Virus record (IMG/VR): IMGVR_UViG_3300032829_000014
Coordinates: 1 to 53,848 of that record
DNA from: a virus
DNA length: 53,848 bases
Reading direction: 5' to 3' (one strand)
The notes below the pieces were generated by a model. It was given only the letters and a program-made list of their open reading frames with translations. It made no database searches and was not told where the DNA came from. Shown here one piece after another: positions 12,694-53,737 of the stretch. How positions within the stretch are numbered: position 1 is the stretch's first letter; each line of letters begins with the position of its first letter. Position numbers and translations under genes: made by a program.

Positions 12694-14022
12694 TTATTTA
12701 ATATTTTCATTTGTTCTTCGTGTTCTAAAATTAATAGTTCTGTAAAATTTTTTATTAATTACATTTTTTTCTTGCTTCTTCCTATCACTACTTTTTAGGG
12801 ATATTTCTATCTTGTCATCCATAGTTGGATAGTCCACAAGCTTAAATTCAGGCGAACTCAACCTTATTTTATTATTTAATTTATTTTCTTTAATATTTAA
12901 TATTCTTTTTCCTTCATTTAATATATTAACTGCTGCATTAATATCTCTATCATGAATAGTATTACAATTAGGACAAGTCCATGTTCTATCATTCAATTCA
13001 ATATCATTATTTTTATAATTACAACAATTACATAATTTACTTGATGGATAAAATTTATTTATTTCAATTATTTGTCTACCATACCAATTAGCCTTATATA
13101 TCAATTTTCTTTTAAATTCATACAATGATAACTCTTGTATTGATTTTGCTAATTTATGATTCTTTAACATATTACTTATACTTAAATCTTCCATTACTAT
13201 AACTTGATTTTCGTTTAGTAATTTATTTGTTACTTGATGTAAATAATTTTCTTTTTTATTATTTAATTTTTCATATGCTTTTGCTAATTTAATTCTTGCT
13301 TTATTTTTATTTTTACTTCCTTTAACTTTTCTACTTAATTGTTTATGTAATCTCTTTAATTTCTTTTCATTATTTTTTTTAATTTTAATGTTTTCAAATT
13401 TATTACCATTACTATCAATAATAAAATCTTTAATACCTAAATCAATACCAATAATATCATTTATTGATTTTGGTAATATTTTAGTTATTTCTTTATCAAT
13501 TAATATACTTAAAAAATATTTATTACTTTTTGTTTTTGTTAATGTTGCTGATTTAATATTTTTTCTATTTTTATTTAAATATTTTTCATCTTTTATTGAA
13601 CATTTAAAATGAATATTTTTTAATTTTTTAATTAATGTTATTCTATTACCTTTAAAAGCTTTTTTGCTTATTCCATTATAAGGAAATCTACAACTTTGTT
13701 TATTATCTTTTTTTGATTTAAATTTAGGAAATCCTGTTTTTTTAATAAAAAAATTATAATAAGCACTATTTAAATCTATTAATGATTGAGCAATAACTTT
13801 TGAGTGCATTTCATTTAACCAAGAATATTCTTCTTTTTGTTTTAAATTTGTTAAATATTTACCAAGTTCACCCCAAGAAACAGAATATTTATTTTTATTA
13901 TATTCTTCAATTTTATATGCTAAAAGATTATTATAAATAAATCTACATGAACCAAGTAATTTATTAATATAAATTATTTGATCAATATTAGGATAAATTC
14001 TTATTTTAATAGCTTTTAACAT
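12694..14022 (-). CDS. tnpB: TnpB RNA-guided nuclease, no TnpA partner
   Basis: A 442-residue TnpB, the transposon-encoded RNA-guided DNA nuclease ancestral to Cas12. The RuvC-like active site is complete: D194 in IIGIDLG, E278 in VIVMEDL, and D360 in HDRDINAA. A zinc ribbon (CNCC near 331-334 and CPNC at 350-353) sits between the second and third catalytic residues. The C-terminal tail (YPTMDD, then SLKSSDRKKQEKN) is like that of other TnpBs whose 3' end overlaps the guide RNA. No transposase is adjacent. The start codon overlaps the end of the upstream gene by 17 bases, and the downstream gene begins 22 bases later, so it sits inside a phage operon. It may be a TnpB-only element or a fixed, host-used copy. 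Confidence 0.9.
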   Translation of the reverse strand: MLKAIKIRIYPNIDQIIYINKLLGSCRFIYNNLLAYKIEEYNKNKYSVSWGELGKYLTNLKQKEEYSWLNEMHSKVIAQSLIDLNSAYYNFFIKKTGFPKFKSKKDNKQSCRFPYNGISKKAFKGNRITLIKKLKNIHFKCSIKDEKYLNKNRKNIKSATLTKTKSNKYFLSILIDKEITKILPKSINDIIGIDLGIKDFIIDSNGNKFENIKIKKNNEKKLKRLHKQLSRKVKGSKNKNKARIKLAKAYEKLNNKKENYLHQVTNKLLNENQVIVMEDLSISNMLKNHKLAKSIQELSLYEFKRKLIYKANWYGRQIIEINKFYPSSKLCNCCNYKNNDIELNDRTWTCPNCNTIHDRDINAAVNILNEGKRILNIKENKLNNKIRLSSPEFKLVDYPTMDDKIEISLKSSDRKKQEKNVINKKFYRTINFRTRRTNENIK

Positions 14023-15308: not shown

Positions 15309-16175
15309 ATGAATGAAGAATTAAATAATTTATTAAATAAACATAAAGAAAATAAAAATTTAAATATTATTAGTCCAGAAAATAAAGCTAATATTATACA
15401 AAATGATATACAAAAAAATTTAGAAATGGAAACTGATCCTGATTTAATTATAGGTTATGAAATAATTAAATTACCATCAGAAGGAATTTTTTATAAAAAT
15501 AAAATAAAAGAATTAACTATTGAGTATTTAACATCTAAAGATGAAGATATATTAACAACACCTTCTTTAATTGAAAATGGAACAGTACTAGATATTTTAT
15601 TAAAAAGAAAAATTAAAACTCCGAATATTATTGTTGATGATTTATTACCTGGTGATAAAGATGCTATACATTTATTTTTAAGAATGTCATCATATGGGCC
15701 AGAATATAAAGTTCAAGTTATTGATCCTAGAAATGGAAATACATTTAATAGAACAGTAGATTTATCTAAACTTAAATATAAAGAAATAATTGAAAAACCT
15801 GATGAAAATGGTTTATTTTATGTTGAATTACCAATGCGTAAAAAAATTGTAAAATTTAAATTATTAACATCTGGTGAAGATGATTTAATATTTAAAAAAG
15901 CAGAAGCAATAAAAACAGCATATAATCAAGAATATAGTCAATATAAATCAATGAAATTAAAAGCAAGTATTATTGAAATAAATGGAAAAACAGATAAAAT
16001 TTATATTGAAAAATTTGTTGATGCTATGCCAGGTTTAGATGTTTTTACAATAAGAAAAAAAATACTTGAGGTATCACCGGGTATTGATATGAAATATGAA
16101 TTTATTACTGATGATGGATTTAAATTTATAACAAATTTAACAATGGGCATAGATTTTTTTTTCCCAAATCTTTAG
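15309..16175 (+). CDS. gp26-like baseplate hub / tail assembly chaperone
   Basis: A 288-residue protein with the pattern of the T4 gp26-like family (Pfam T4_baseplate): a polar N-terminus, then EIIKLPSEGIFYKNKIKEL, LTSKDEDILTTPSLIENGTV (strongly conserved in the family), DDLLPGDKDAIHLFLRMSSY and GPEYKVQV. It ends GIDFFFPNL-stop. It lies directly upstream of the tape measure gene, the position of tail assembly chaperones in many tailed phages. The stop is preceded by a run of nine T, and the -1 frame continues open for 65 more codons, so a frameshifted 349-residue form is likely. Confidence 0.75.
   Translation: MNEELNNLLNKHKENKNLNIISPENKANIIQNDIQKNLEMETDPDLIIGYEIIKLPSEGIFYKNKIKELTIEYLTSKDEDILTTPSLIENGTVLDILLKRKIKTPNIIVDDLLPGDKDAIHLFLRMSSYGPEYKVQVIDPRNGNTFNRTVDLSKLKYKEIIEKPDENGLFYVELPMRKKIVKFKLLTSGEDDLIFKKAEAIKTAYNQEYSQYKSMKLKASIIEINGKTDKIYIEKFVDAMPGLDVFTIRKKILEVSPGIDMKYEFITDDGFKFITNLTMGIDFFFPNL
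16154..16160 (+). promoter_or_regulatory. Probable -1 ribosomal frameshift site (T_TTT_TTT)
   Basis: In the zero frame the codons are GAT TTT TTT TTC CCA AAT CTT TAG. The heptamer T_TTT_TTT fits the X_XXY_YYZ slippery rule exactly and lies 14 bases before the zero-frame stop. A one-base backward slip enters the open frame that continues FPKSLAGNYKEL. I found no obvious strong downstream hairpin by eye, but the T-run followed by CCC is itself slip-prone. Confidence 0.6.
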
Positions 16176-16357
16176 CAGGCAATTATAAAGAACTTGTTAA
16201 AGAAGAAATATATTTATTAGTTAAACATGGAAATTATGATGCAAATTATATTAATAATATTCCTATTTGGGAAAGAAGATTAAATTTAAAATTTTTACAA
16301 AAAGAATTAGATGAAATAAAAAAGAATCAAGAACAACAAATGATAAAATATAGATAA
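16154..16357 (+). CDS. C-terminal extension reached by -1 frameshift
   Basis: This frame overlaps the end of the gp26-like gene and has no ATG until four codons before its stop, so it cannot be an independent gene. It adds 65 residues: after FPKSLAGNYKEL come VKEEIYLLVKHGNYDANYI and IPIWERRLNLKFLQKEL, then a charged tail. The pattern of a short helical segment followed by (M/I)P.WER....... is typical of the second part (GT or gp51-type) of tail assembly chaperones. The full product would be 349 residues. The alternative is a sequencing error in the nine-T run, which would make a single longer gene. Confidence 0.6.
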   Translation, partial: FFFPKSLAGNYKELVKEEIYLLVKHGNYDANYINNIPIWERRLNLKFLQKELDEIKKNQEQQMIKYR

Positions 16358-16367
16358 TATATTTTAT

Positions 16368-16402
16368 AAAAGCTGAAATAATATTTATTTTCAGCTTTTT
16401 TT
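16368..16402 (+). terminator. Rho-independent terminator after the chaperone gene
   Basis: AAAAGCTGAAA pairs perfectly with TTTCAGCTTTT (11 bases), followed by a T-run. It lies 10 bases after the -1 frame stop at 16357, which supports that stop as the true end of the gene. The tape measure gene has its own candidate promoter just beyond. Confidence 0.85.
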
Positions 16403-16457: not shown

Positions 16458-19019
16458 ATGGCTGAAAGAGTTAAAATAAATGAGTTAAGAAAAGAATTTC
16501 AAGAATTAAATAATTTACAAGAAAAAATGCTTGAACTTGAAAAAAATGAAATTAATAATATAAATGATATTTTTAATTTAAAAAAGAAATTATTAACAGC
16601 ACAATCAGAATGTAATGCTGAACAAGCAAAATTAAATAATATTTTAGATACTTACAAAAAGAAAATTAATGAAGGATTTATTACAACAAAAAATACTAAA
16701 GATGCTTTAGATAAAGAAATAAAATCACAAGAAAATTTAGTTAAAATAGCCGAAAAAAATTTAAAAGTTCAACAAAGAATTAATAATACATTATCATTAA
16801 TGAAATTAAATTATGATGGTATTATAAAAAATGCTAATTCATTATGGAAATATTTAATGGAATCAGATAAAGTAATAAAACAAACTACATTAAATTTAGG
16901 ATTAAGTGGAGAAAAATCTGAAATATTAAGAACAAATTTTGAACAATCAGCAGGTTTTGCTGCAAGATTAGGTGCTAATTTAAGTGATATAGGTACAATT
17001 ATAACTTCATTTGCTAATGAAACAGGAAGAGCAAAGTTATTAACATCTGAAATGCTTAAAGATTTTGTTTTAATTGGAAAAGGAACTGGATTAGGTGTTG
17101 AAGAAGCTGCTAAATTAGGCGGACAATTAGAATTAATGGGTTTAAATGCAAAAGCTTCAATGGAGTATGTTCAAGGAATTGTAAATACATCTGAAAAAAT
17201 GGGTATTAATACAACAATGGTATTAAAAAATATTTCAAATAATTTTAAAGCATTACAAAAATTTACATTTCAATCAGGTGTTGCAGGTATTGCAAAAATG
17301 GCAGAATATTCTGCTAAATTTAAAATTGATATATCTCAAGCATTAGATTCTGCTGAAACAGCAAGAACATTAGAAGGTGCAATTAATATGATGGCACAAT
17401 TACAAGTAATGGGTGGTGAATTTGCTAAAGCAGATCCTTTTGAAATGTTATATTTATCAAGAAATGCACCTGAAGAATATACAAAAAAAATAAATGAAAT
17501 GACAAAAGGAATGGCTCAATTTAGAAAAACAGCCAGTGGTACTTTTGAAACATTTATTTCACCTGTTGATTTAGATAGATTAACAGTTGTTTCTAAAACA
17601 TTAGGAATAGATAAAGTACAATTAGTTGAACAAGCTAAAAGAATGGCTGAAATTCAAAGAATGCGCCAACAAATGATTGGAACTAATTTAACATCAGCAC
17701 AAAAACAAATTATTGAGGGTTTAGCTAATTTTGATAGTAAAACAGGTAGATTTACAGTACAAATAGGTCAAGGATTTAAAGATATTTCACAAGTAACAGC
17801 ACAAGAAATAAAAGTAATACAACAACAATCATCATCATTAGAAAAAAGAGCACAAGCAGCACAAACTTTTGATGAAACTTTTAAAAATACTATAAACGAA
17901 ATAAAAGCTGCTTTATTACCATTATTAAAAGGTGTTAATGGAGTATTAGAACAGATAAGGCCATTTTTATCAGCTTTAGGTGATGGCATTAATCATTTAA
18001 GTAAAATAACCCCAAATTGGGTTAAAATAGCTGGTGGTATTGCTCTTTTAGGAACAACAAAATTAATTGGTCCATTAACAACTATTCTTGGAAATAAATT
18101 ACAACCAACATTTTATAAAAATTTAAAAACAACAGCTGCTGGAATTGGAGGTGGTGGAAAAGTTAAAGGAATAAAAGGAGGCGGATTAAGTGGATTAGCA
18201 ACAGGTGCTGGTATGGGATTAGCTGGTTTAGGTGTTGGAGAAGGTATAAATTTAGCATCAAAAGGAATTGAGGGAATTGCAAATGCAATGAGTAAATTAA
18301 CACCTGAACAGGCTAAAACATTAGCAAGTATAGTTTCTTCATTAACTCTTGCAACAGGTATTGCAGCAGCATTAGCTTTTGGAGTTGCTTTATTAGGAAC
18401 AACTGCAACAGCAGCATCAGTTGGATTATTAGCTTTTGGTGGTGCAGTTGCATTAATTGGGGTAGGAATAGGAGCAGCAGCAGCTGGCATTGGATTTATG
18501 GGATCAGGTTTAGCTAAATTAGTTGAATCAGGTAAAGGATCTGGAGATTCTTTATTAAAAGTTGCAGCTGGAATAACAGCAATACAATTAGCAATGGCTG
18601 GTGGTGGTTTAGCTACAATATTTACAGGTGGTGCTGGTATTGCAGCATTTGCAGCTACAATGAATTCTATTTCAAAAAATGCACCTGCAATAGCATTAGT
18701 TGGAGATTCTTTTAAAAATATTGCAACTGTTTTATCTGGTAATAAAGAACAATATAATGATATAGAAAATTTAGTAAAAACAATAGCATCATTAGAAGGT
18801 AAAAAAATATCTCCATTAACAGATTTAGCTAATTTATTTAAACAACCAATAAAAGTAGAATTTGCAAATAAAGAAGTATCATTAGTATCTAATATTACAT
18901 TAAATGTTGATGGTAATAAAATAGCATCAGCTATTAATATTGGAGGTACTGGTATGATTCAATTAGATGGTCAAAAAACAGGAAAATTACCTCCAAAAAC
19001 AATAAACAAATATTCATAA
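16458..19019 (+). CDS. Tail tape measure protein
   Basis: An 853-residue protein, probably the tape measure that sets tail length. Residues 1-125 are a long coiled coil (Glu/Lys/Leu/Asn heptads). The middle is Ala/Met/Gln-rich helix. Residues about 520-740 are Gly/Ala/Ile-rich hydrophobic helices (IAGGIALLGT, then GLSGLATGAGMGLAGLGVGE), the membrane-active part found in tape measures. A beta-like C-terminus ends LDGQKTGKLPPKTINKYS. It follows the frameshifted chaperone gene, as in most myo- and siphoviruses. The length is modest for a large phage, suggesting a short tail or partial sharing of the role. The coding strand is richer in GCA/GCT codons than its neighbours because of the Ala content. 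Confidence 0.85.
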   Translation: MAERVKINELRKEFQELNNLQEKMLELEKNEINNINDIFNLKKKLLTAQSECNAEQAKLNNILDTYKKKINEGFITTKNTKDALDKEIKSQENLVKIAEKNLKVQQRINNTLSLMKLNYDGIIKNANSLWKYLMESDKVIKQTTLNLGLSGEKSEILRTNFEQSAGFAARLGANLSDIGTIITSFANETGRAKLLTSEMLKDFVLIGKGTGLGVEEAAKLGGQLELMGLNAKASMEYVQGIVNTSEKMGINTTMVLKNISNNFKALQKFTFQSGVAGIAKMAEYSAKFKIDISQALDSAETARTLEGAINMMAQLQVMGGEFAKADPFEMLYLSRNAPEEYTKKINEMTKGMAQFRKTASGTFETFISPVDLDRLTVVSKTLGIDKVQLVEQAKRMAEIQRMRQQMIGTNLTSAQKQIIEGLANFDSKTGRFTVQIGQGFKDISQVTAQEIKVIQQQSSSLEKRAQAAQTFDETFKNTINEIKAALLPLLKGVNGVLEQIRPFLSALGDGINHLSKITPNWVKIAGGIALLGTTKLIGPLTTILGNKLQPTFYKNLKTTAAGIGGGGKVKGIKGGGLSGLATGAGMGLAGLGVGEGINLASKGIEGIANAMSKLTPEQAKTLASIVSSLTLATGIAAALAFGVALLGTTATAASVGLLAFGGAVALIGVGIGAAAAGIGFMGSGLAKLVESGKGSGDSLLKVAAGITAIQLAMAGGGLATIFTGGAGIAAFAATMNSISKNAPAIALVGDSFKNIATVLSGNKEQYNDIENLVKTIASLEGKKISPLTDLANLFKQPIKVEFANKEVSLVSNITLNVDGNKIASAINIGGTGMIQLDGQKTGKLPPKTINKYS

Positions 19020-27869: not shown

Positions 27870-28439
27870 ATGCAAAATTATATAAAATTATCGGAATATG
27901 CAAGAAAAAAATCAATAACTTATAAAACAGCATGGAATCATTTTAAAAAAGGAATGATTGATGGTGCTTTTTTAGATAATACTAATCATGTGTTAATACC
28001 TATTAACAATAATTTAAATAATAATTGTATTATATATGCCAGAGTATCATCAAATGATAGAAAACAATCATTAATTGATCAACAAAAAAGATTGGAAGAA
28101 TTTGCAAATTTAAAAGGTTATAATATTGTTGGTTCATATAAAGAAATTGCTTCTGGTATGAATGATAAAAGAATTATTTTAAATAAAATATTAAATAATG
28201 ATGATTGGAATATACTTATTATTGAAAATAAAGATAGATTAACCAGATTTGGGTTTAATTATATTAAAACTTTATTAAATAAACAAAATAAAGAAATCAT
28301 TATACTTAATACTATAGATAATGATAAACAAGATTTAATGAAAGATTTAATATCAATATTCTATTCCTTTTCTGCCAGAATGTATGGCCTAAGAAGAAAA
28401 AAAAATAAACAAGATATAATTAAATTTATTGAAAATTAA
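27870..28439 (+). CDS. tnpA: IS607 TnpA, serine recombinase
   Basis: A 189-residue transposase of the IS607 type. Residues 1-45 are a MerR-like DNA-binding helix-turn-helix (YIKLSEYARKKSITYKTAWN). Residues 53-189 are a small resolvase domain with the catalytic serine in IIYARVSSNDRKQS (S60), then LIDQQKRLEEFANLKGYN, SGMNDKR and IIENKDRLTRFG with the active-site arginines. It cuts and rejoins the element at GG. It is followed 9 bases later by tnpB. Confidence 0.92.
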   Translation: MQNYIKLSEYARKKSITYKTAWNHFKKGMIDGAFLDNTNHVLIPINNNLNNNCIIYARVSSNDRKQSLIDQQKRLEEFANLKGYNIVGSYKEIASGMNDKRIILNKILNNDDWNILIIENKDRLTRFGFNYIKTLLNKQNKEIIILNTIDNDKQDLMKDLISIFYSFSARMYGLRRKKNKQDIIKFIEN

Positions 28440-28448
28440 AAATAATTA

Positions 28449-29690
28449 TTGCAATTAGTTGAACAACATATTATAAAATCTAATAATCCTTTCTTTAAAG
28501 AATGTGATAATATTTGTTTTAAATCAAAAAATTTATATAATTCTTGTTTATATAATATCAGACAAGAATATATAAATAATAAAATAAATATTATTAATAA
28601 TTTATATCATATAATGAAAAATACTGATGAATATAAATCATTGCCAAGAAAAGTATCATCATCAGTATTATTAATGGTTCAAAAAAATTTTAAATCATTT
28701 TTTAATTCATTAAAAGAATATAATAAAAACTTAAATAAATTTAAAAATAGACCACATTTACCAAAATATTTGGATAAAATTGATGGAAGATATATGGTTT
28801 CATATACCAATCAAGCAATATCTAAAAAAATATTTAAAAAAGTTAATAAAATTAAATTATCACAATCTAATATTGAATTTAAAACAAAAATTAATGATTT
28901 TAATATTATAGATTGTATAAGAATAGTACCTAAAATAGGTTATTATGTTATTGAAATTGTTTATACTATTAAAGAAAAAGGATTATTAAATGATAATAAT
29001 CAATATTTAAGTATTGATATAGGATTAAATAATTTAGCTACATTAACAAGTAATAAAATTAATTTTGACCCAATAATTATAAATGGTAAGCCATTAAAAA
29101 ATATAAATCAATATTATAATAAAAAAAGATCAGATTTACAATCAATATTAAAAATTAGAAATAATAAAAATAATTCAAATAAATTAAATTTATTAACATT
29201 AAAAAGAAAAAATAAGATAGATAATTATTTACATAAAGCAAGTAAAAATATAATTAATATATGTAATGAAAATAATATAAATACGATAATAATAGGTAAA
29301 AATGATAATTGGAAACAAGATATAAATATAGGTAAAACAAATAATCAGAATTTTGTAAATATACCACATAGTAGATTTATAGAGATAATAAAGTATAAAT
29401 GCGAAATAAGTGGTATAAAATTTATAACTATAGAAGAAAGTTATACAAGTAAAGCAAGTTTTTTAGATTTAGATAAGATACCAAATTATAGTAAAAATAA
29501 TAAAACTAATTATAATTTTAATGGTAAAAGAATATCAAGAGGGTTATATAAAACTAATAAAGGTATAATTATAAATGCTGATGTAAATGGTAGTTATAAC
29601 ATATTAAGAAAAGCAATTCCAAAAGTATTTTCCAATGGGGTAGAGGGTGTTAGAGTACATCCAAAAATCATAAAAATTTTAAAGGGATAA
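28449..29690 (+). CDS. tnpB: IS607-associated TnpB nuclease
   Basis: A 413-residue TnpB with a TTG start, supported because the family begins MQLVEQHIIK. RuvC residues: D190 in YLSIDIGLNN and D378 in INADVNGSYNI. At the usual second site the sequence is IIIGKNDNWKQ without Glu. A Glu pair at 329-330 (ITIEESYTSKASFLD) lies further on, a rearranged arrangement I recall for IS607-linked TnpBs. No CxxC zinc ribbon is present. The end (FSNGVEGVRVHPK) is typical of this branch. It probably uses a guide RNA from its own 3' end. Confidence 0.88.
   Translation: MQLVEQHIIKSNNPFFKECDNICFKSKNLYNSCLYNIRQEYINNKINIINNLYHIMKNTDEYKSLPRKVSSSVLLMVQKNFKSFFNSLKEYNKNLNKFKNRPHLPKYLDKIDGRYMVSYTNQAISKKIFKKVNKIKLSQSNIEFKTKINDFNIIDCIRIVPKIGYYVIEIVYTIKEKGLLNDNNQYLSIDIGLNNLATLTSNKINFDPIIINGKPLKNINQYYNKKRSDLQSILKIRNNKNNSNKLNLLTLKRKNKIDNYLHKASKNIINICNENNINTIIIGKNDNWKQDINIGKTNNQNFVNIPHSRFIEIIKYKCEISGIKFITIEESYTSKASFLDLDKIPNYSKNNKTNYNFNGKRISRGLYKTNKGIIINADVNGSYNILRKAIPKVFSNGVEGVRVHPKIIKILKG
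29590..29686 (+). ncRNA. Probable guide (omega) RNA region at the 3' end of the IS607 element
   Basis: TnpB guide RNAs normally overlap the last part of tnpB and reach the right end of the element, with the guide read from flanking DNA. The extent here is inferred from that rule and from the right end fixed at 29686; I did not resolve a fold. The GC-richer stretch CAATGGGGTAGAGGGTG near 29633 would be its core. The guide would begin at 29687. Confidence 0.35.
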
Positions 29691-37373: not shown

Positions 37374-38249
37374 ATGATTACATTTAATTCTGTTGGATTA
37401 TTGGGTCGTCTTGGAAATCAATTATTTCAATACTCAATATTATTAGCTGTACAACAAAAACGAGGATTTGAAATAAAATTACCTAATTTTAATGGAAGAA
37501 TTCATCATGGCCAAGAATGTTTATTAAATAATTTTAATATTTCATCTAAATTTTTAGATAAAAATGATATAATTCAATATCAATATATAGAACCTGAAAT
37601 AGATCAATTTAAATATAATCCAAGTGTATTTTTAACGCCGGATAATACAGATTTTTATGGATTTTTTCAGCATGGAAAATATTATGAAGATGAAAAATGT
37701 TTTGAATTAATAAAAAAAGAATTATCTTTGAAAGAAAATATTTTATTACCTAATATTGAAAATTTTAATAAAATTAAAGAACAATATAAAGGATATCTAA
37801 TTGTATCATTACATTTAAGACGTGGAGATAGTTCGAAAGATATGTTTGGTAATGATTTAAATATTTTAGATAAAAATTCATTATGGTATGAATATTTTAA
37901 TAGAGCAAGTAAATATTTTGAAAATAAAAAAGTAAAATTTCTTTTATTTACTGGCGGAATACGTGGAAATGAAGATCCATCAAGTGAATATCAATGGTGT
38001 AGAAATAATTTTAAAGGAGAAGAATTTATAATACTTGATGAACAAAGAGATACAATAAACGATTTTGCATTAATGAAAGAATGTGATCATCATATTTTAT
38101 CACCTGTTTCAACATTTAGCTATATGGTTGGATATTTAAATAAAGATAAAGTTAAAGATGGTAAAATTATTATAACACCCGAAAAATATCGTTTTTTACG
38201 GGAATCTCATGGAAAAGATTTTTATCCTCCTGAATTTATTTTAGTTTAA
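37374..38249 (+). CDS. GT11 fucosyltransferase-like protein (first copy)
   Basis: A 291-residue GT11-family enzyme (alpha-1,2-fucosyltransferase type, GDP-fucose donor). GLLGRLGNQLFQYSILLAVQ at the N-terminus is the family hallmark, and LIVSLHLRRGDSSKDMFG in the middle is the H-x-R-R-G-D donor motif. ECDHHILSPVSTFSYMVGYL near the end is the third conserved block. The enzyme usually finishes glycan chains. A second GT11 gene (45328) differs clearly in sequence, so the two were probably acquired separately. Confidence 0.88.
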   Translation: MITFNSVGLLGRLGNQLFQYSILLAVQQKRGFEIKLPNFNGRIHHGQECLLNNFNISSKFLDKNDIIQYQYIEPEIDQFKYNPSVFLTPDNTDFYGFFQHGKYYEDEKCFELIKKELSLKENILLPNIENFNKIKEQYKGYLIVSLHLRRGDSSKDMFGNDLNILDKNSLWYEYFNRASKYFENKKVKFLLFTGGIRGNEDPSSEYQWCRNNFKGEEFIILDEQRDTINDFALMKECDHHILSPVSTFSYMVGYLNKDKVKDGKIIITPEKYRFLRESHGKDFYPPEFILV

Positions 38250-48086: not shown

Positions 48087-48335
48087 ATGGCAGTACAAAG
48101 AAATATACCAACTTGTCCTTTTTGTGGAAAAAAAATTGCAAAAGCAATATATAGAAAACATTTACCTTGGGAATCTCCTTTTTATGAAGATGATTTTATA
48201 GAATGGAAATATATAAAGCATAATTGTAAAGAAAGAAAAAAATTTATAAAAGATAATAAAAAGGATAATGAATTTAAAGATTTATTATTAAATATTTTTA
48301 AAAATGAAAAAACAAATAAATCCAGTAATATATAA
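48087..48335 (+). CDS. Small zinc-binding protein
   Basis: 82 residues. PTCPFCGKKIAKAIYRKHLP near the start and YIKHNCKERKK further on give Cys2 and His/Cys ligands of a single zinc finger. The end overlaps the GIY-YIG gene by 32 bases. Confidence 0.6.
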   Translation: MAVQRNIPTCPFCGKKIAKAIYRKHLPWESPFYEDDFIEWKYIKHNCKERKKFIKDNKKDNEFKDLLLNIFKNEKTNKSSNI

Positions 48336-49203
48336 AATAATAAATCTAATAAATAATAAAATATATATTGGAAAAGATTTATATAATAATCCTAAATATA
48401 TGGGTTCTGGAAAATTATTAAAACAAGCTTTTAAAAAATATGGTAAAATAAATTTTAAAAAAGAAATTATTGAAAAATGTAATGATATAAATCAATTAAA
48501 TGAAAGAGAAAAATTTTGGATTAAAAATTTAAATACTTTTTCTCCTAATGGATATAATATTAATGTTGGTGGAAAAGGTGGTGATACATATACATATCGT
48601 TCTCAAGAAGAAAAACTTAAATTTAGAGAAAATTTAAAAATTAAAAAATTAGGTAAAAAATGTTCAATTGAAACAATTGAAATTTTTAAAAAAGCTAGAA
48701 AAGGAAAACCACAAAAAAGAAGAGAAAATGTAGAATGTCCTTATTGTCATAAAATAGGTGATAAATTAAATATGATGAGATGGCATTTTGATTTTTGTAA
48801 AGAAAATCCAAATAGAATAATAAAAAATATAAAAAAAATAAAATGTTGTTTTTGTAAAAAAGAAATAAATATAGCAAATGCATATCAATGGCATTTTGAT
48901 TTTTGTAAGGAAAATCCAAATAGAATAATAAAAAGAGGTCATCCTCAATCAATAGAAAGTAAAATTAAAATAGGAAATAAAAGTAGAGGTAGAAAACATA
49001 CAATCGAAACAAAAATTAAAATAGGTAATAAAAGTAAAGGTAGAAAAAAAACTGAAGAGACTAAAAATAAACTTAGTATTAGTATGAAAAAAAGATGGAA
49101 AAATAATATAAACATATATAAATGTATTTATTGTAATAAAAAATCAAAATCTTTAGGAAATATAAATAGATGGCATAATGAAAATTGTAAATTTAAAAAA
49201 TAA
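48304..49203 (+). CDS. GIY-YIG homing endonuclease with NUMOD3 and zinc fingers
   Basis: 299 residues. The nuclease domain spans residues 1-90: NPVIYKIINLINNKIYIGKD (GIY and YIG strands), then REKFWIKNLNTFSPNGYNIN. Linker motifs of the NUMOD3 type (SIESKIKIGNKSRGRKHT, and again TIETKIKIGNKSKGRKKT) bind DNA. Three C2HC-like fingers are present (VECPYCHKI...WHFDFC; IKCCFCKKE...WHFDFC; YKCIYCNKK...WHNENC). Two fingers share a 46-base near-identical DNA repeat (48781 and 48889), a recent internal duplication. Confidence 0.88.
   Translation: MKKQINPVIYKIINLINNKIYIGKDLYNNPKYMGSGKLLKQAFKKYGKINFKKEIIEKCNDINQLNEREKFWIKNLNTFSPNGYNINVGGKGGDTYTYRSQEEKLKFRENLKIKKLGKKCSIETIEIFKKARKGKPQKRRENVECPYCHKIGDKLNMMRWHFDFCKENPNRIIKNIKKIKCCFCKKEINIANAYQWHFDFCKENPNRIIKRGHPQSIESKIKIGNKSRGRKHTIETKIKIGNKSKGRKKTEETKNKLSISMKKRWKNNINIYKCIYCNKKSKSLGNINRWHNENCKFKK
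48781..48934 (+). repeat. 46-base direct repeat inside the GIY-YIG gene
   Basis: The unit starting TGGCATTTTGATTTTTGTAA occurs at 48781-48826 and 48889-48934, differing by a single base (AAAG against AAGG). It encodes WHFDFCKENPNRIIK twice, that is, the end of zinc fingers 1 and 2. Confidence 0.8.
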
Positions 49204-49220
49204 TAATAAAAAATAAGATT

Positions 49221-50114
49221 ATGAGTAAAAGAGTAATAATTTATGGAGTAAAAACAAATGATGATAAATTTCATTATATTGGTAAAACTGAAAAAAAAGT
49301 AAATAAAAGAAATGAACTTAATAAATCTGATGTTACTAGACAATATTTAAATAATGATATTAGAACTATTTTTAATGAAAATGTAAATGTTATACCTATT
49401 GAATATGTTAAAGAAAATGAATGGTATGATAAAAAATTAATTAATATTGTAAAAAAATATAATGAAAAACATCCATTAAAAAATGCTAAATGGATGTTAG
49501 AAGGAAAACGTGGATTTTGGGAAGGTACTGGTGGTTATTGGAAAGGAAAGAAAAAAGATGATTTTACATTGCAAAGATTATCAGAAAGTAAATTTAAAAA
49601 AATAGCTCAATATGATAATGAAGGTAATTTAATAAAAATTTGGAAATCTGGAAAAGATGTTGGAATTGAAATATTTAAAGATTATAAAATTATAAATGGT
49701 TCTGGATGTACTAATTTATATATAATTTTAGAAAATAAAACATTAAGGGGAAGATTTAAATATAATTTTTATTGGTTTAAAGAAGATGAACTAATATATT
49801 ATTTTAATAATATTCCAATTAAATTAAATTTAAACAATATTAAAGAAAAAGAAAAAATAGTTAGAAAAGAAGCATCAAAAAAAGCTTTAAATAATAGATT
49901 AATATTTGGACAAAAAAAATATACAATAGAGCAATTTAATAAAAATGGAAAATTAATAAAAACATATATAAATGTTGAAGATGCATCAAAAAAATTAAAA
50001 AAAAGTATTCATACAATTCGTGATATTTGTAATAATAAAAGAAAAAAATATGATGAAAATTGTATATTAAAATATGGTGAAAAAATTTTACAACCAATAA
50101 AAAAGAAAGATTAG
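49221..50114 (+). CDS. Diverged GIY-YIG-type protein with NUMOD1-like repeats
   Basis: 297 residues. VIIYGVKTNDDKFHYIGKTE at the start is a GIY-YIG pair. A middle GFWEGTGGYWKGKKKDDFT region is linker-like. KIAQYDNEGNLIKIWKSGKD and, near the end, TIEQFNKNGKLIKTYINVED, followed by ASKKLKKSIHTIRDIC, are NUMOD1-type DNA-binding repeats. Likely a homing endonuclease. It follows the 48304 endonuclease by 17 bases. Confidence 0.75.
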   Translation: MSKRVIIYGVKTNDDKFHYIGKTEKKVNKRNELNKSDVTRQYLNNDIRTIFNENVNVIPIEYVKENEWYDKKLINIVKKYNEKHPLKNAKWMLEGKRGFWEGTGGYWKGKKKDDFTLQRLSESKFKKIAQYDNEGNLIKIWKSGKDVGIEIFKDYKIINGSGCTNLYIILENKTLRGRFKYNFYWFKEDELIYYFNNIPIKLNLNNIKEKEKIVRKEASKKALNNRLIFGQKKYTIEQFNKNGKLIKTYINVEDASKKLKKSIHTIRDICNNKRKKYDENCILKYGEKILQPIKKKD

Positions 50115-50125
50115 AGATATATTTA

Positions 50126-50917
50126 ATGAAAGAATTTTATTATCAAATAAAGGGAAAAAGAGATGAGAATGATCACAATGGATTATCCAGATGGATGTTT
50201 CCTCCTATTTTTTCTGGTAAAGTTGAAGCTGAAAATAGAGATGAAGCAAAAAAATTTATTGAAGAAAAATATAATAAAAAATTTCCTTTAAAAGTTTTAA
50301 AAAAAGACTTGGATAGTAATGAATTTTTATTAAGTATTGAAGAAATTAAAGAAGACAGTCATATAAGAAGATTATTTGAAAAACAAATATGTAAGCATTG
50401 TAATAATGCTTTTTATGTTATTGACAAATACAATGATAAAAATTGCTTAAATAAAGGATTTGAATTTTGTTCTGATGAATGTAAAATTGAATATAATGAA
50501 ATAAAAAAATATATGTTTAATGATAGACAAAATTTATTATATGAAATAAATAATATAGAAAAAATAGATGAAAATATTGAAATTGATAATATCATTGAAA
50601 AACATTTAGATAATAAAAAAACTATTCCGATAATTTATAAAATTACAAATAAAGCAACAAATTTATCATATATTGGTAAAACAATACAAATTTTTACATT
50701 AAGATGGTATCAACATTTTTATCAAAAAGGTAATTGTAAATTTCATAATGCAATTAAAAATAGTAATTTAATTGATTGGAATTTTGAAATTATTGAAATT
50801 GTTAAAATACCTAAAAATGCCAAAACAATAAATGAAATTGATACAATAATATTAGAAAGAGAAAGATATTGGATAAATTATTATAATACAATAAATGAAG
50901 GATATAATACATTATAA
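50126..50917 (+). CDS. Phage protein fused to a C-terminal GIY-YIG domain
   Basis: 263 residues. Residues 1-90 look like a small phage protein (FYYQIKGKRDENDHNGLSRW, then AENRDEAKKFIEEKY). Residues 91-130 have QICKHCNNAFYV and FEFCSDECKIEY, a treble-clef-like Cys4. From residue 170 a GIY-YIG domain runs: IIYKITNKATNLSYIGKTIQ, LRWYQHFYQ, and LERERYWINYYNTINEGYN with the catalytic Glu region. GIY-YIG is usually N-terminal in homing enzymes, so the order is reversed here. Confidence 0.75.
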   Translation: MKEFYYQIKGKRDENDHNGLSRWMFPPIFSGKVEAENRDEAKKFIEEKYNKKFPLKVLKKDLDSNEFLLSIEEIKEDSHIRRLFEKQICKHCNNAFYVIDKYNDKNCLNKGFEFCSDECKIEYNEIKKYMFNDRQNLLYEINNIEKIDENIEIDNIIEKHLDNKKTIPIIYKITNKATNLSYIGKTIQIFTLRWYQHFYQKGNCKFHNAIKNSNLIDWNFEIIEIVKIPKNAKTINEIDTIILERERYWINYYNTINEGYNTL

Positions 50918-52687: not shown

Positions 52688-53737
52688 ATGTCATTATTAA
52701 TAAGTTATGGCTGTAGACCGGAATGGCTTAAAATTAAACCATTAATTAATGTTCTTAATAAAAATAATTTTAAATATAAGACATTATTTACTGGCCAGCA
52801 TCAAGATTTAATAAGAATTGAAAAAAATATTATTTGGGATTATAATTTTAATCCAGAAAATGGCGAAAATAGACTGGATAGTATTATTCAAGCCTGTATG
52901 AATAAATTAGGTAATATTGTTAATATTGAAAAAAATGAATATAACAATCAAATAAAATATATTATGGTACAAGGAGATACAACATCTGCATTAGGTGTTG
53001 CATTATCAGCTTTTCATCATAATATTAAAGTGATTCATTTGGAGGCGGGACTAAGATCTTTTAATAATGAGAATCCATATCCAGAAGAAGTAAATAGACG
53101 AATAATATCTCAAATTGCTTCAATACATTTATGTCCAACAAAAGAAAACTATGAAAATTTAATAAATGAAAAAATATTAGGTGATAAATATGTTGTTGGT
53201 AATACAGCATTAGATAATTTATTAGAATATAAAGATAAAATAAATTATAAAGATATTGTATTAGTGACATTACATCGTAGAGAAAATCATGATATTATTA
53301 ATAAATGGTTTATTGAAATAAATAAATTAGCAGAAAAATATGATAATATTCTTTTTATATTACCTTTACACCCAAATCCTAATGTTCAAAAATATAAAGA
53401 TTTATTAATGAATGTTGAAATTGTTAAACCATTAGATCATAAAGAATTATTAAATATTTTAGTAAAATGTAAATTAGTTATTACAGATAGTGGAGGATTA
53501 CAAGAAGAATGTTCATTTTTACAAAAAAAATGTTTGGTTTGTCGTAAAGTAACAGAAAGACCGGAAGCATTAGAAACATCATCAAGATTAATAATATCAC
53601 CCGAAAATCTTGAAAAATGGTTTGATTATATTATTGATGGACATTATGAAATATTACATAATAATTGTCCATTTGGAGATGGCTATGCATCTGAAAAAAT
53701 TTATAAAATATTGGAAAAATATTATAATGAAAGATAA
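52688..53737 (+). CDS. wecB: UDP-N-acetylglucosamine 2-epimerase (non-hydrolysing)
   Basis: 349 residues of the WecB/MnaA type, which converts UDP-GlcNAc to UDP-ManNAc in the cytoplasm. ISYGCRPEWLKIKPLINVL at the start (family: 'GTRPE.IK..P'), FTGQHQDL, VQGDTTSALG, VIHLEAGLRSFN with YPEEVNRR following, then VTLHRRENHD, VITDSGGLQEE and TERPEAL are all present and in order. The length is close to the normal 370. It provides an activated sugar for the transferases encoded to its left. Confidence 0.92.
   Translation: MSLLISYGCRPEWLKIKPLINVLNKNNFKYKTLFTGQHQDLIRIEKNIIWDYNFNPENGENRLDSIIQACMNKLGNIVNIEKNEYNNQIKYIMVQGDTTSALGVALSAFHHNIKVIHLEAGLRSFNNENPYPEEVNRRIISQIASIHLCPTKENYENLINEKILGDKYVVGNTALDNLLEYKDKINYKDIVLVTLHRRENHDIINKWFIEINKLAEKYDNILFILPLHPNPNVQKYKDLLMNVEIVKPLDHKELLNILVKCKLVITDSGGLQEECSFLQKKCLVCRKVTERPEALETSSRLIISPENLEKWFDYIIDGHYEILHNNCPFGDGYASEKIYKILEKYYNER

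Follow-up and report, generated by a model that had tools for sequence, protein, structure and literature searches.

In phage lambda, a single gene lying before the tape measure gene is translated into a short protein, gpG, and, by −1 frameshifting, into a longer form, gpGT (PMC5009743). G–T frameshifting was described in a 2016 review as widely conserved in long-tailed phages, T4 excepted, and a +1 shift was thought very likely in the haloarchaeal myovirus HSTV-2 (PMC5009743). In the chaperone gene of Pakpunavirus Adele, which precedes the tape measure gene, bioinformatic analysis places a −1 frameshift at a GTTTTT motif (PMC12846349). For T4-like phages, Vladimirov et al. (2022) are credited, in the accounts of their work given by two later papers (PMC10885494; PMC12846349), with recognizing gp26 and gp51 as chaperones, with separate short and long genes in some phages and poly-T −1 signals in others.

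T4 itself has gp26 and gp51 as separate genes on opposite strands, unlike the locus described here, in which one gene has two frames. The two T4 proteins share the family PF12322; gp26 matches this family and not phrog_634, whereas gp51 matches PF12322 over residues 1–201 and phrog_634 over residues 147–246. Because gp51 matches both, we read it as a gp26-like domain fused in frame to a C-terminal extension; by these profiles, gp26 and gp51 of T4 are a short form and a fused long form, made from separate genes.

The window analysed here is the whole 53,848-nucleotide stretch of a viral record of 53.8 kb (IMGVR_UViG_3300032829_000014), with a GC content of 20%. An open reading frame on its plus strand (15309–16175) encodes a gp26-like protein of 288 aa, the putative short form (TAC-N, or G-like), which ends in GIDFFFPNL followed by a TAG stop codon at 16173–16175. 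Shortly before this stop, at the end of the gene, lies a run of nine T (16154–16162, plus strand) containing two in-frame −1 heptamers, T_TTT_TTT at 16154–16160 and T_TTT_TTC at 16157–16163. From 16124 onwards the −1 frame meets no stop before the one at 16355–16357, and it continues for 64 codons past the T run (16163–16357, plus strand, stop included); the sole ATG of this extension lies five codons ahead of its stop. An earlier note, made from the sequence alone, had pointed to T_TTT_TTT within nine T, to the long open −1 frame and to the near-absence of ATG from the extension, all of which we find. T_TTT_TTT is present in frame as that note proposed, but it is not the single candidate slip site, since 49 of 50 relatives have T_TTT_TTC, which the note did not mention, in the required frame.

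An open stretch of 65 codons has a chance probability of P = 0.0011 under a first-order Markov model of the 20% GC window. T runs of eight or more occur 13 times in the window, two of them of length nine, and the T9 run alone is weak evidence because DFFFP at 20% GC nearly forces such a run. It is the conserved overlap of the frames, rather than the T run itself, that is the evidence for a frameshift gene.

The zero-frame protein scores 28.6 bits against PF12322 (T4_baseplate; curated cut-off 24.5) and matches phrog_150 (baseplate hub; E 2e-7), in keeping with the gp26-family membership proposed for it earlier. A sequence search of the PDB gave no match for this protein or for the extension. 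In BFVD, gp26-like predicted proteins were matched by the AF2 model built for the zero-frame protein (mean pLDDT 88); against 728 solved chains, the best Z-scores were 6.1 for YqbN (3klu) and 5.4 for the HK97 tail assembly chaperone (2ob9), both weak at Z < 8, followed by a weak 4.4 for a PICI protein, and the Foldseek match was also weak (E 0.57). Matches as weak as these may at most hint at a tail assembly chaperone fold.

For the extension, the profile hit is phrog_634 (baseplate hub assembly catalyst; E 1.7e-4), and a profile of the corresponding extensions in related loci aligns with the C-termini of the T4, P-SSM2 and S-PM2 proteins (hhalign probability 89, E 2.3e-6). It thus resembles the C-terminus of gp51 and would be the TAC-C, or T-like, part of a long form. 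The contrast that had been drawn with T4, as a phage with separate gp26 and gp51, does not hold, since gp51 itself consists of a gp26-like domain and the same C-terminal domain.

A single-sequence search of viral contigs returned no relatives of the locus, but a search with a profile of three members recovered about 70 loci. These loci are 54–69% identical, some of them lie on contigs of 246–365 kb, and one sits in a Bacteroidota MAG contig. The −1 clade comprises 50 distinct members (about 54–72% identical), the window counted among them. TTT TTT follows a D codon in every member (GAT in 43, GAC in seven) and is itself followed by TTC, except in one member that has TCT. The T run is nine long in 42 members and eight long in the other eight; 43 members have T_TTT_TTT in frame, 49 have T_TTT_TTC, and none of the 50 lacks both. 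The comparison of T runs in related gp26-like genes that the earlier note had suggested thus shows a T8–T9 run with an in-frame −1 heptamer in 50 of 50 distinct members. The distance from the T run to the zero-frame stop is identical in 49 of the 50, the −1 extension is 61–74 residues long in all of them, and the +1 frame shuts within eight codons. Over 450 clade pairs, pn/ps in the extension was 0.18 in the −1 frame, compared with 1.07 and 1.51 in the two other frames; the extension of the window itself diverges further (34–55% identical, pn/ps 0.53). By this measure the −1 frame evolves as a protein, under purifying selection.

Nine relative records, eight of them of 246–365 kb, gave one gp26-like match and one extension match each, in genomes that may be incomplete, and in the eight large contigs the gp26-like gene and the extension lie in different frames. 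With a single gp26-like copy in the window and in each of these eight contigs, the two-gene arrangement of T4 was not found. The phage carrying the gene is T4-like and probably has a large genome.

One close relative, L176 (2501–3500), differs from this pattern. Its slip region reads GAG TTT TTT TTG CCC (GAG TTTTTTTTG CCC), a single frame spans the short and long parts, and the old short-form stop is retained in the +1 frame; it is the sole such close relative seen. Either the scheme is truly inverted there or the assembly contains an indel; as written, the long form of L176 needs no shift, and a short form would need one. Relatives with one intact frame and no T run had been named in the earlier note among the findings that would refute frameshifting; of about 51 relatives, L176 does have a single intact frame, and the others do not.

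Beyond the extension, an intrinsic terminator hairpin followed by a T run lies at about 16369–16400 (plus strand; z −2.95), where the earlier note had placed a terminator. The two overlapping frames are directly upstream of a gene at 16458–19019 (plus strand, 853 aa), which we assign to the tape measure by position and synteny; a homologue of its product is encoded by the next gene in about 60 relative loci. Profile searches with this protein and four clade homologues gave no match, and BLASTP of the window's protein against the tape measure protein of phage immuto was not significant. Matches to a tape measure profile (phrog_167; 1.7e-18 and 2e-8) are confined to the gene at this position in relatives whose extension is in the +1 frame.

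In the window and the clade, we found neither a conserved downstream RNA structure nor a Shine–Dalgarno-like stimulator. A candidate 11-bp stem located 8 nt past the first heptamer (16169–16203, plus strand; z −1.2 to −1.7) was rejected as a conserved stimulator, as it is not kept in L008, L011 or the wider clade, and RNAalifold returned no consensus structure for the relatives. Another possible stem, seen in relatives about 40 nt downstream (alignment A4, columns 41–47 with 64–70), pairs in 86% of cells with kinship uncontrolled; its covariation is mainly that of one pair, a C–G/U–A exchange between two synonymous third positions, and it is absent from the window.

Elsewhere in the window, an IS605-type TnpB (OrfB) gene lies at 12694–14022 on the minus strand, near a PhoH gene (Pfam OrfB_IS605, 6.8e-19), and a serine resolvase gene followed by a second TnpB-like gene (27870–29690, plus strand) has the arrangement of an IS607-type element. 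A long series of glycosyltransferase-like and methyltransferase-like genes, assigned mostly by eye, extends over 24035–53737, within which Pfam confirmed a GT11 family gene (37374–38249) and a UDP-GlcNAc 2-epimerase gene (52688–53737). A GIY-YIG domain protein, a probable homing endonuclease, is encoded at 48304–49203, and the neighbouring frames 49221–50114 and 50126–50917 resemble it by eye.

Eighty loci, mostly more distant, were fetched for the wider family. Most of these end in TTT TTT TGG CC or TTT TTT TAC CC and carry a +1 extension of about 65–95 codons, and the T run in the +1 class is mostly T7. Frameshift direction was assigned from the frame carrying the extension, which places Flavobacterium phage immuto, Mel-JY01, SP-15, LIS04, SagM-GXN1, LR756508 and RM378 in the +1 class, and LR756511, P-SSM2, S-PM2, KVP40 and HTVC008M in the −1 class; in four loci (L018, L028, L065 and L087) both frames are open, with the conserved motif carried by the +1 reading. 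Immuto, Mel-JY01, SP-15, LIS04, RM378 and about 70 environmental contigs have the same gene in the same place with a homologous extension, but unlike in the window the +1 frame carries that extension, with TTT_TTT_TGG or TTT_TTT_TAC as the usual site. The extensions of the two classes are homologous, because an HMM built from those of the +1-frame relatives only finds the window's −1 extension (E = 2e-9), the sole significant match in a set of 595 peptides translated from the window. In P-SSM2, S-PM2, KVP40 and HTVC008M, as in the window, a gp51-like −1 extension overlaps gp26, with T_TTT_TTC as the putative slip heptamer in the first three and T_TTT_TTT in HTVC008M; their sites are mostly T6C, in contrast to T9C here, and the proteins are very distant in the tree. 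The record of Streptococcus phage vB_SagM-GXN1 (L004; PQ819873.1) is 176 kb long with just 40 annotated features, and the +1 extension of its gp26-like gene is unannotated.

In none of 70 distinct +1 genes is T the last base of the codon ahead of the T run, compared with 33.7 cases expected from each gene's codon use, and the same is true of the 41 with a D, N or S codon (25.9 expected), in counts that ignore shared ancestry; the log10 P of −27 for this avoidance is overstated because the sequences are treated as independent. Avoiding T at this position in +1 lineages would prevent formation of a −1 heptamer. A tree of 86 rows requires direction to have changed at least three times. It seemed at first to place the −1 clade within the +1 group, but the AU test does not reject a single clade for the main +1 group (p 0.474), so the −1 clade may lie inside or beside that group. 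We lean towards the view that frameshift direction has switched between −1 and +1 at one homologous site, the slip sequence being adjusted at each switch; a T before the run, or T_TTT_TTC, would then enable −1 slippage in the window's lineage. A literature search largely confined to freely accessible papers found no account of such a contrast, which may be undescribed.

Taken on its sequence features, the locus is very probably a tail assembly chaperone gene, a single gene giving short and long forms by −1 slippage on the T run. Most ribosomes would stop at 16173, producing the short gp26-like form. A minority would slip back one base on T_TTT_TTT or T_TTT_TTC, the Phe tRNAs in the P- and A-sites re-pairing, and append the gp51-like C-terminal domain of 64 residues. 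If the two forms act as lambda gpG and gpGT do, the tape measure protein would be coated by many short and few long forms, and the C-terminal domain would recruit tail tube subunits. We favour ribosomal slippage on tandem Phe codons, given that an in-frame heptamer is kept throughout and that the homologous cyanophage sites are only T6C.

An identical long protein would be made if, in some transcripts, RNA polymerase inserted one extra U at the T9 run. Polymerase slippage is plausible on runs of T8–T9, which are the lengths found in the clade (T9 in 42, T8 in eight), and a conserved ribosomal stimulator was not found there. The homologous site is, however, T6 followed by C in cyanophages and KVP40 and mostly T7 in the +1 class, and such runs are too short for efficient polymerase slippage; moreover, an in-frame heptamer for ribosomal −1 slippage stands in all 50 clade members, those with a run of eight included. 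We therefore consider transcriptional slippage unlikely. It is still harder to see the extension as a separate gene, unfused to gp26 and expressed by re-initiation or from its own start, even though an ATG stands at extension codon 11 in 45 of the 50 members and the Mel-JY01 annotation shows two overlapping genes: the first ATG in the window's extension comes only five codons before the stop, the residues ahead of the codon-11 ATG (LAGEYKK) are well conserved as well, and both parts are fused in one frame in T4 gp51. That a sequencing or assembly error, or decay of a gene, has split what is truly one frame is hardly credible, for although this is a homopolymer run in a single metagenomic contig, and L176 has a single frame, the two-frame arrangement recurs in 50 distinct members from many independent assemblies.

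Slippage between the two frames would make this a lambda G/GT-type (TAC-N/TAC-NC) system, because one gene most likely makes both forms. As in lambda, the shift would be −1 and the gene lies before the tape measure gene, but the slip site here is a T run and the likeness is one of arrangement. The likeness to Adele, which belongs to a different phage family, is likewise one of arrangement. The gp51-like extension and the −1 arrangement in fifty distinct relatives support the G/GT-like solution by a gp26-family protein that the earlier note put forward. It is not the departure from described T4-type phages that the note took it for, and the scheme is not new, because it was put forward earlier for T4-like phages in the work credited to Vladimirov et al. 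(2022), as far as PMC10885494 and PMC12846349 relate it.

The present comparison brings into the G/GT scheme a large group of T4-like phages, most of them uncultured, and it links the gp26/gp51 pair of T4 to a single frameshifted gene. Vladimirov and colleagues are said to have found that several T4-like groups retain frameshifting. In none of the annotated relatives examined are the two frames joined, so annotation lacks the long form. With about 120 sequences, −1 and +1 slippage can be compared in nature at a single position.
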